From the NCBI GenBank assembly GCA_038843675.1, contig JAWBRV010000006.1, positions 292 through 64,291 on the forward strand: 64,000 nucleotides of DNA, read 5' to 3'. The notes below the pieces were generated by a model. That model made no database searches. It saw only the letters and a program-made list of their open reading frames with translations, and was not told where the DNA came from. Made by a program: the position numbers and the translations under genes. The DNA is from Candidatus Bathyarchaeia archaeon. Lineage in GTDB: Archaea; Thermoproteota; Bathyarchaeia; 40CM-2-53-6; CALIRQ01. Within the stretch, counting starts at the first letter, position 1, and each line of letters begins with the position of its first letter. Below are positions 392 through 3,167 of the stretch, one piece after another.

Positions 392-1000
392 TTGGATCCC
401 ATGGCCTTCCAGCTGGCGATCGTATGCGGCATATTATCGGGGGGGATATCCTTCCTATTCAAGCGGCGCGAAAAGGAGGGGCGGGCCCAAGCGGAGGCGA
501 TCGGCAGCGCCCGGGCCGGATCCTTGGAGGAATTGAGGCGGGAGTTGGCCTTACCCATGCTCAGGAGGCAAATAGCCTCTTTCGCGGTCGATGCCCTGCG
601 GGATGCTATCGCCAAGGGGATGGGGGGGCCGGGCTTGAGGAGCCTCTTGGAGCGCTATGAAGAGGAGCTCAGGGCCTTGGATGAGGCCCTATACCCTAAG
701 GAGGTGGAGCTCAGGATCCTCGAGCTGGAGGAGGCTAAGGCGAGGCTGAGGGAGTTCTTGGAGTCCAAGATCGGCGAGATAGATTCGAAAATAGCGGAGC
801 TGAGGAGGGCTCTGGAGCTCGGGGAGAGGGTTAAGCTGGATTTCGAAGCGCCAAGGCCGGAGGATTATGAGGGCAAGGCGAAGGCCCTTATCAAGGACCT
901 CGGGGGGCGGGCCGGGGAGCTGGAGAGGGAGCTCGAGGCGATAGATAAGGAGGTACTCTCGGCCTTGGAGCGGCTGGAGAGGCTGGAGGCGGAGGGTTGA
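392..1000 (+). CDS. membrane-anchored coiled-coil protein of unknown function
   Basis: A 202-residue protein of no family I recognise. Residues about 5-22 are hydrophobic (FQLAIVCGILSGGISFLF) and followed by a basic stretch, consistent with a single N-terminal membrane anchor. The remainder is almost pure charged helix, rich in Glu, Arg and Leu with heptad spacing, interrupted near residue 150 by a short Pro-containing linker. The start is read as TTG at 392 because GGTGA at 381-385 sits six bases before it; ATG at 401 is the alternative. The 3' end overlaps the TTG start of rpiA by four bases, so the two are probably translationally coupled. Function unknown; a cytoplasm-facing scaffold is only a guess. 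Confidence 0.75.
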   Translation: MDPMAFQLAIVCGILSGGISFLFKRREKEGRAQAEAIGSARAGSLEELRRELALPMLRRQIASFAVDALRDAIAKGMGGPGLRSLLERYEEELRALDEALYPKEVELRILELEEAKARLREFLESKIGEIDSKIAELRRALELGERVKLDFEAPRPEDYEGKAKALIKDLGGRAGELERELEAIDKEVLSALERLERLEAEG

Positions 1001-1695
1001 AGGGGGATCGACTCGAGGCTGCCAAGAGGGCGGCCGCCGAAAGGGCATCGGCCCTCGTCCGAAGCGGCCAACTCGTCGGCCTAGGGAGCGGCAGCACGAT
1101 CGCCCTCGTCGTAGAGGCCTTGGCCAAGAGGGTTGTGGAGGAGGGGCTGAGGGCCGAGTTCGTCCCATCCTCGTATCAAATCCAGCTCTTGGCGATGGAG
1201 AGGGGCCTGAGGGTCGTGGACTTCTTGGGGGTCGATAGGATAGATTTAGCCATAGATGGCGCGGATCAAGTCGATCGGGATCTGAATCTCGTGAAGGGGA
1301 AAGGGGGGGCCCTAACGAGGGAGAAGATATTGGATGCGTTCGCCTCCGAGCTCGTCATAGTCGTGGACGAGGGGAAGCTTTCCGATCGGCTCGGCGTTGG
1401 CCAGCCGATACCGATCGAGATCCTACCCTTCGCCCTCCCATTGGCCATGAGGGAGATTAAGAGGCTCGGGGGCAGGCCGAGCTTGAGGTTGGGGACTGGA
1501 AAGGTCGGGCCCGTGGTCACCGACAACGGGGGCTTCATCCTCGATGCGGACTTCGGCCCCATAGATGACCCCAAGCGCCTTGATGCGGATCTCAGGGCGA
1601 TACCTGGCGTTGTGGAAACGGGCATATTCGCCGGCATGGCCCATGAGGTCTACGTGGGAAGGGCCGATGGAACCGTGGAGATCCTGAGGAGATAA
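997..1695 (+). CDS. rpiA: ribose-5-phosphate isomerase A
   Basis: Interconverts ribose 5-phosphate and ribulose 5-phosphate, supplying ribose for nucleotides and for the PRPP that feeds histidine synthesis. The 232-residue length is normal for RpiA. Visible signatures are the phosphate-binding loop GLGSGSTI (about residue 28), the catalytic segment IDGADQVD and the KGKGGALTREK motif, which carries the active-site Lys and Glu. The TTG start overlaps the stop of the preceding gene (TTGA), with a Glu/Gly-coding, G-rich ribosome-binding stretch before it. A tRNA gene follows on the other strand two bases after the stop. Confidence 0.95.
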   Translation: MKGDRLEAAKRAAAERASALVRSGQLVGLGSGSTIALVVEALAKRVVEEGLRAEFVPSSYQIQLLAMERGLRVVDFLGVDRIDLAIDGADQVDRDLNLVKGKGGALTREKILDAFASELVIVVDEGKLSDRLGVGQPIPIEILPFALPLAMREIKRLGGRPSLRLGTGKVGPVVTDNGGFILDADFGPIDDPKRLDADLRAIPGVVETGIFAGMAHEVYVGRADGTVEILRR

Positions 1696-1696
1696 G

Positions 1697-1828
1697 TGCC
1701 GAGGGCGGGATTCCCGGCCGTTTCAGCTGTCGAACCCGCGACCTCTGGATCGCCCAGAGGGGCTCAATCCCTTATGAGTCCAGCGCTTTGGCCCTTGCGG
1801 GCTCTGACCGCAGCTGAGCCACCTCGGC
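1697..1828 (-). tRNA. elongator tRNA-Met(CAU) with three introns, one in the T-loop
   Basis: The gene reads from 1828 to 1697. Acceptor arms GCCGAGG (1828-1822) and CCTCGGC (1704-1698) pair fully, with discriminator A at 1697. D-stem GCTC/GAGC, anticodon stem CTGGA/TCCAG and T-stem GCGGG/CCCGC are perfect once three insertions are removed. These are 16 nt at 1785-1800 (between positions 25 and 26), 22 nt at 1750-1771 (after position 37/38) and 18 nt at 1712-1729 (inside the T-loop, restoring TTCGAAT). The spliced product is 76 nt with anticodon loop CTCATAA. The body matches archaeal elongator Met rather than initiator, which usually begins with A1. A TATA-like tract lies at about 1853-1866. 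CCA is not encoded. Confidence 0.9.
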
Positions 1829-1943
1829 ATGTTGCCCCAAGGATGAAGCGGTAAAAAAGTTTTAATGAAGGATTGCTGGCCCCTTCGGGCGGCGGCTTTT
1901 TTAAATGGGATGGCCGCAATCCCAAGGGCGGTGGCGATGCCCC

Positions 1944-3167
1944 TTGGGGCGATACCTTAGGATTGAGGATCTCGACCTAAGGGATAAGGCCGTTTTCCTC
2001 AGGGTCGATATAAATTCGCCGATCGATCCCAAGACGGGCCGGATCCTTGACGATACCAGGATCAAATCGGTTAAGGAGACGTTGGATGCCCTATCCGGAT
2101 CTAGGGTCGTCATAGGGGCCCATCAGGGCAGGCCTGGGGATGAGGATTTCACATCCCTCAGGGCCCATGCGGAGCTGATGGAGAGGGCCATTGGGAGGCG
2201 CGTCGAGTTCATTGAGGATATATTCGGCCCATTAGCTAGGGGGGCCATAGGGGGCATGAGGGCGGGCGATATAATCCTATTGGAGAACCTCAGGTTCGCA
2301 TCGGAGGAGATCCTCGATGCCCCGCCCGAGGCCCTCGCCAAGACCCACTTGGTCAGGAATCTGGCCCCGCTCCTCGATGCCTACGTCAACGATGCCTTCG
2401 CGACGGCCCATAGGGCCAGCGCGTCCATAGTGGGCTTCCCGGAGGTTTTGCCATCCGCGGCAGGGAAGCTCATGGAGGCGGAGCTGAGGGCCTTGGAGGC
2501 GATAACCGAATCCCCTAGGAGGCCTTGCGTATTCGTCATCGGCGGCGCCAAGGTGGAGGATAAGGTCCCGGTCGTGAAGAATGCCCTCGAGCGGGGCTAT
2601 GCCGATAGGGTCTTGGTCGGGGGGCTGGTCGCGAAGGTCTTCCTGAAGGCGGCGGGCCTCGAGCTCGGCAAGGGGGAGGAGGCGGCCCTATCGAAGAGGG
2701 GGGCCCTCGTGGGGATGGCGAGGGAGGTCATCGGGAAATGGGGGGATAGGATAGCCATGCCTAGGGATGTCGCCGTGAAGCGCGATGGCGGGAGGGAGGA
2801 GGCCCCGGTTCAAAGGATGCGCGAGTTCGATTCCTCGATGGACATTGGGGCGGCGACGATCGAGGAATACTCCTCTATCATAAGCGGGGCCGGGACGATC
2901 GTGGCGAACGGCCCGATGGGGGTCTTCGAGGAGGGGAGCTTCGCGCTTGGCACAAGGGCCATATTGGAGGCGATCGCCAACTCCAAGGCCTTCAAGGTCA
3001 TCGGCGGGGGCCATTTGGCCGTTTTGGCCCAAGAGCTCGGGATTTCCGATAAATTCTCCCATATTAGCACGGGAGGCGGGGCGCTGCTCAAGCTCCTCTC
3101 CGGAGGGTCCCTCCCGGCCATCGAGGCCCTCGAGAGGGCAGCCGAGAGGTACCGACATAAGGCCTAG
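1944..3167 (+). CDS. pgk: phosphoglycerate kinase
   Basis: Converts 1,3-bisphosphoglycerate and ADP to 3-phosphoglycerate and ATP, or the reverse in gluconeogenesis. The 407-residue protein has the archaeal signatures DINSPID (residue about 24), AHQGRPGDED (the substrate Arg loop) and near the C-terminus NGPMGVFEEG and IGGGHLA (nucleotide site). The frame is open from ATG 1905, but a TATA box (TTTTTTAAAT, 1897-1906) covers that codon, so transcription should start near 1930. I therefore choose TTG at 1944, preceded by a GGTGG element near 1930. Monocistronic or co-transcribed with the downstream dehydrogenase, which has its own TATA element. Confidence 0.95.
   Translation: MGRYLRIEDLDLRDKAVFLRVDINSPIDPKTGRILDDTRIKSVKETLDALSGSRVVIGAHQGRPGDEDFTSLRAHAELMERAIGRRVEFIEDIFGPLARGAIGGMRAGDIILLENLRFASEEILDAPPEALAKTHLVRNLAPLLDAYVNDAFATAHRASASIVGFPEVLPSAAGKLMEAELRALEAITESPRRPCVFVIGGAKVEDKVPVVKNALERGYADRVLVGGLVAKVFLKAAGLELGKGEEAALSKRGALVGMAREVIGKWGDRIAMPRDVAVKRDGGREEAPVQRMREFDSSMDIGAATIEEYSSIISGAGTIVANGPMGVFEEGSFALGTRAILEAIANSKAFKVIGGGHLAVLAQELGISDKFSHISTGGGALLKLLSGGSLPAIEALERAAERYRHKA

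Follow-up and report, generated by a model that had tools for sequence, protein, structure and literature searches.

The closest described systems to the gene analyzed here combine several introns in a single tRNA. In Pyrobaculum islandicum, tRNA-Pro(UGG) has introns at positions 25/26, 37/38 and 56/57; in addition, 22/23 and 59/60 are each listed as known tRNA intron insertion points, and the anticodon-loop pairing of the archaeal bulge-helix-bulge (BHB) motif has been described for the canonical intron (PMC4090602). The multi-intron tRNAs of the Thermoproteales occur in a lineage with an (alpha beta)2-type splicing endonuclease (EndA). In (alpha beta)2 EndA, a lysine of the crenarchaea-specific loop (CSL; Lys44 in A. 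pernix numbering) is the determinant of broad substrate specificity, and enzymes of this type reportedly accept relaxed motifs (PMC6379350). The maximum number of introns per archaeal tRNA gene in the literature that we found is three. Outside the archaea, the nucleomorph of Guillardia theta likewise carries a three-intron elongator tRNA-Met, with some introns non-canonical in position, yet that nucleomorph is eukaryotic and of unrelated origin, and its insertions of 3-24 nt are removed by a splicing process that is not understood (PMC4090602). In a red alga, the same three arms are interrupted as in the gene described below, albeit in another tRNA and with a eukaryotic Sen enzyme that lacks the CSL (PMC6379350).

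Here, we describe an elongator tRNA-Met(CAU) gene in a 64-kb window (the whole stretch of DNA that was analyzed) from a member of the archaeal phylum Thermoproteota that is apparently uncultured. Based on sequence comparison, we consider it very probable that the gene is functional, is probably the sole elongator tRNA-Met gene of its genome, and carries three BHB introns at 22/23, 37/38 and 59/60 that are spliced by EndA. Similar to P. islandicum tRNA-Pro(UGG), it combines one canonical intron with one in the D-arm region and one in the T-loop, and its lineage likewise encodes a predicted (alpha beta)2-type endonuclease. It differs from that gene in the tRNA concerned, in the exact positions and in belonging to another class of the phylum. 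Three-intron tRNAs and T-loop introns at 59/60 are already known, in line with an earlier sequence-only reading of this DNA that had called the gene rare rather than new; what is new is the lineage in which they occur. No description of a three-intron elongator tRNA-Met in the host lineage was found in the literature.

Results

The gene spans 132 nt on the minus strand (1697..1828), is read from 1828 to 1697 and does not encode the CCA end. Exon 1 (1804-1828, 25 nt, GCCGAGGTGGCTCAGCTGCGGTCAG) is followed by intron 1 in the D-arm (1788..1803, 16 nt, 22/23, AGCCCGCAAGGGCCAA; central helix G18GUC : GGCC), exon 2 (1773-1787, 15 nt, AGCGCTGGACTCATA), intron 2 at the canonical position (1751..1772, 22 nt, 37/38, AGGGATTGAGCCCCTCTGGGCG; central helix CUCA : UGGG), exon 3 (1729-1750, 22 nt, ATCCAGAGGTCGCGGGTTCGAC), intron 3 in the T-loop (1711..1728, 18 nt, 59/60, AGCTGAAACGGCCGGGAA; central helix UUCG : CGGG) and exon 4 (1697-1710, 14 nt, TCCCGCCCTCGGCA), all on the minus strand. 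The exons sum to 76 nt (25+15+22+14), and in this spliced form every stem is paired and ARAGORN calls tRNA-Met(cat), as expected from the sequence-only reading, which had already recognized an elongator tRNA-Met with introns of 16, 22 and 18 nt, one of them inside the T-loop. The unspliced gene receives no ARAGORN call and no Rfam match, and across the 64-kb window both tools return no tRNA at all. The three-intron structure explains why both miss the methionine elongator, the difficulty for annotation that had been anticipated. A split or permuted tRNA was rejected, as the four exons lie in order inside the 132 nt.

The gene is flanked by a convergent rpiA (997..1695, plus strand, Pfam PF06026), whose stop codon is separated from the 3' end of the tRNA by a single base, and by a divergent pgk (1905..3167, plus strand, Pfam PF00162; ORF as listed, its true start may be further in). 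The tRNA 5' end is preceded, at a distance of 24-37 nt, by a TATA-like A/T-rich box, TTAAAACTTTTTTA (1852..1865, minus strand), which is kept in both congeners in spite of diverged flanking sequence. We infer that it is a putative promoter element.

The window sequence by itself does not fix the intron junctions, each of which could slide by one to three bases. In the archaeal BHB motif of the canonical type, intron bases -6 to -3 pair with a stretch of four exon bases that is followed by the last two bases of the 5' exon. These pairs were counted both for the proposed register and for seven registers slid against it. Intron 3 at 59/60 shows 4/4 central pairs in 25/25 orthologues, and 0/25 do so at each of the seven shifted registers. 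For intron 2 at 37/38, at least three of the four pairs form in 26/26 orthologues (4/4 in 16); for intron 1 at 22/23, the same holds for 25/25 intron-bearing orthologues (4/4 in 12), with none reaching 4/4 at any of the seven shifted registers. Over the three introns, shifted registers gave 4/4 pairs in at most one case, a contrast that is partly built in as the registers were picked with the motif in mind, while that choice has no bearing on the consistency between families or on the empty sites described below. The junction pairing that the sequence-only reading had proposed to check is thus present, with the central helix kept in all intron-bearing orthologues parsed.

BHB geometry and relatives together assign the introns to 22/23, 37/38 and 59/60, which shifts all three slightly from where that reading had put them. 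Intron 1 keeps its 16 nt and its mature sequence, but moves from 25/26 (1785-1800) to 22/23 (1788-1803); both 25/26 and 23/24 were rejected by BHB geometry and by the relatives. Intron 2 likewise keeps its length of 22 nt and the mature sequence, at 1751-1772 instead of 1750-1771. In the case of intron 3, the length of 18 nt stands, but 58/59 (1712-1729) was rejected on the same two grounds in favor of 59/60 (1711-1728), and here the mature base 59 changes from A to C. The sequence TTCGACT found at the empty sites of the relatives L053 and L058 supports this C, since the 58/59 register would leave A59.

All three introns have the 4-bp central helix of archaeal, EndA-spliced BHB introns. In the host genus, intron 1 has no strict inner helix next to the central one; there, the intron hairpin (GCCC/GGGC) and the central helix are mutually exclusive, hence a relaxed motif. 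In the T-arm of the host genus, the strict BHB form has a predicted energy of -10.0 kcal/mol vs. -14.0 kcal/mol for the minimum (a gap of 4 kcal/mol for the isolated T-arm), owing to an alternative pairing of UUC with GAA, and the central BHB pairs have a probability of about 1% or less at 37 °C. The central helix does belong to the predicted T-arm minimum in 19 of the 25 orthologues. Folded in isolation, the whole 132-nt precursor adopts another structure.

When 101 genomes were searched, orthologues came up in the two congeners, at 96% identity, and in many further genomes of the order and class. In the congeners (L032, L033), the exons show 0/76 differences to the window gene and all variation is intronic. 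The T-loop insertion was followed by eye and by script in 25 collected genes, the window's own included, which belong to families f1, f3 and f4 of the host's order and to f13 of another order. Once spliced, all 25 are called tRNA-Met by ARAGORN, and chance is excluded by their common T-loop intron position and nearly identical exons. Across these orthologues, intron 3 measures 15-22 nt and is variable in sequence except for a CGRR segment that pairs with UUCG. The elongator gene is spread across the order, mostly next to the same neighbors: rpiA adjoins it in 23 collected loci (families f1-f4) and pgk in 16, including L056 of another order, which identifies these genes as the same locus.

Relatives carry the introns in various combinations. 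Family f2 (L053, L058) and L056 have intron 1 alone, introns 2 and 3 occur without intron 1 in L057 and L059, L060 has only intron 2, and family f5 has no intron at 37/38 or 59/60. Consequently, each site is found empty somewhere: that of intron 1 in L057, L059 and L060, that of intron 2 in L053, L056 and L058, and that of intron 3 in L053 and L058. Beside rpiA like the window gene, L053 reads CTCATAATCC and TTCGACTCCC uninterrupted. This distribution indicates that the three introns were gained or lost independently of one another, and as the same locus exists with and without each of them, gain and loss are directly traceable.

The host genome encodes two EndA genes, L061 and L062, both with PF01974 and PF02778. 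L061 is closest to 3p1z, the catalytic EndA subunit of A. pernix, contains the Tyr/His/Lys triad and aligns its Lys40 with Lys44, the CSL lysine; in L062 the triad is absent by inspection. Judged by these residues, L061 is assigned as the catalytic alpha and L062 as the non-catalytic beta subunit, a pair predicted to form a broad-specificity (alpha beta)2 heterotetramer. The hint at the endonuclease type contained in the sequence-only reading is thereby borne out by the gene pair. Its pointer to the Thermoproteales does not hold: genome G307 contains a locus with 100% identity to the Pyrobaculum aerophilum EndA chain (2zyz; partner named PAE0789), and this genome is of the same phylum as the host but of a different class. 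The host class therefore excludes Pyrobaculum and hence the Thermoproteales. It comprises 257 genomes in the searched collection, which resemble metagenome assemblies in size and completeness, consistent with its probable identity as Bathyarchaeia.

Discussion

For a gene with three interruptions that is missed by ARAGORN and Rfam, in a genome assembly that is not fully closed, a pseudogene has to be considered, i.e., a tRNA-Met broken by small insertions with a functional copy elsewhere. The exons, on the other hand, are unchanged in three species while the introns drift, and the same three interruption points, together with BHB complementarity, return in several families. Searches for a second intact elongator tRNA-Met gene, which the sequence-only reading had named as pointing to a pseudogene, used BLAST, the CAT pattern and both the precursor and the spliced sequences, and recovered none in the 97.7% complete assembly. 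The genome thus likely has no second elongator gene, with room for an unseen copy at that completeness, and we regard a pseudogene as very unlikely.

The gene shares its CAT anticodon and class I body with tRNA-Ile2 of the agmatidine type, and could be that tRNA instead of the methionine elongator. Three CAT-anticodon genes were found in the host genome: the window gene, a separate initiator on C2 (L251; A1:U72, GGG/CCC anticodon stem) and a gene on C13 (L190/L025) with a different acceptor stem, GGGCCCG...CGGGCCC. The latter is presumably Ile2, judging from archaeal acceptor-stem patterns. The acceptor GCCGAGG of the window gene is held among its orthologues with at most a G5 change. On sequence grounds, the gene is classed as an elongator tRNA-Met with CAU anticodon, neither initiator nor Ile2, and an Ile2 identity seems just as improbable as a pseudogene. 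Least probable of all is that only the other two introns are spliced and the T-loop insertion is retained as an enlarged mature T-loop. The predicted T-arm minimum of the host genus, which differs from the BHB form, would be compatible with retention, but the insertion is missing from the same-locus orthologue L053, varies in length and in sequence apart from the CGRR facing UUCG, and 18 additional nt would probably disrupt the elbow of the tRNA.

In the favored reading of a functional gene with three EndA-spliced introns, the gene would be transcribed with all three BHB introns, and the predicted (alpha beta)2 EndA with its CSL lysine would cut both ends of each. A ligase would then join the exons; in other archaea, the exon-joining ligase is RtcB. 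Removal of the T-loop intron would restore TTCGACT and thereby allow the D-loop/T-loop elbow to form. The order of splicing and the final aminoacylation are likewise presumed steps. The finding as a whole predicts an EndA of broad specificity, which in vitro assays could examine.

The T-loop position is also interrupted in the initiator Met, Phe, Tyr, Pro(CGG) and Glu(CTC) tRNAs of the host genome. At 37/38 as at 59/60, the intron enters a 7-base loop between the sixth and the seventh base, which makes the T-loop intron geometrically equal to the canonical anticodon-loop intron. The pairing follows base 57: with G57 the intron has C at -6 (UUCG faces CGRR), with A57 it has T (UUCA faces TGRR), the latter for example in tRNA-Glu(CTC) (L231, G000:C1:209697) and tRNA-Pro(CGG) (L286, G000:C1:3823). 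The T-loop scan used no central-helix rule, so this change is no scan artefact for the initiator Met, Phe, Tyr and Glu tRNAs, with the proviso that two scanned loci, Glu included, were originally fetched by patterns and that Pro(CGG) was found with the TGRR pattern itself. By eye, the six T-loop introns are alike in position and pairing and unlike in sequence, without a sign of recent intron copying among them inside the genome.

Several of these neighboring tRNA genes appear to be interrupted four times, which is the part likely to surprise a specialist. The initiator tRNA-Met gene (G000:C2:152063-152211, 149 nt) contains introns of 16, 21, 18 and 18 nt at 4/5 in the acceptor stem, 22/23 in the D-arm, 37/38 and 59/60; without them, a 76-nt tRNA accepted by ARAGORN remains, and the congeners L252 and L253 agree. 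Part of the motif at 4/5 lies in the 5' leader, so our script scored no pairs for this intron; leader GT plus AG, read by hand, gives GUAG facing CUAC. If the BHB indeed uses leader bases, splicing must precede leader removal. Initiators of families f2 (L254) and f3 (L266) have four introns as well, at partly different positions that include the variable loop. In tRNA-Phe (G000:C15:3101-3248, L290; also L006, minus strand), introns of 19, 17, 17 and 21 nt lie at about 9/10, in the D-loop, at 37/38 and at 59/60, and the congener genes L291 and L292 have the same exons with introns of other lengths. The tRNA-Tyr gene (L022, 1711-1902, plus strand, on G000:C2) can be parsed with introns at 9/10, 30/31, 37/38 (48 nt) and 59/60, with full central helices. 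We found no archaeal tRNA gene with four introns in the literature. The host order probably carries genes for initiator Met, Phe and Tyr tRNAs that are each interrupted by four BHB introns, above the published archaeal maximum of three, with 59/60 introns in no fewer than six tRNAs of a single genome. A heavy load of tRNA introns at multiple positions is therefore not peculiar to the Thermoproteales and occurs also in a separate, apparently uncultured class.

As a side observation, just 19 tRNA matches in the 97.7% complete host genome (G000) pass the Rfam cut-off. Many of its tRNA genes seem to be hidden by introns, and the total load may rival that of Pyrobaculum calidifontis, with 71 introns in 46 tRNA genes (PMC8450103).
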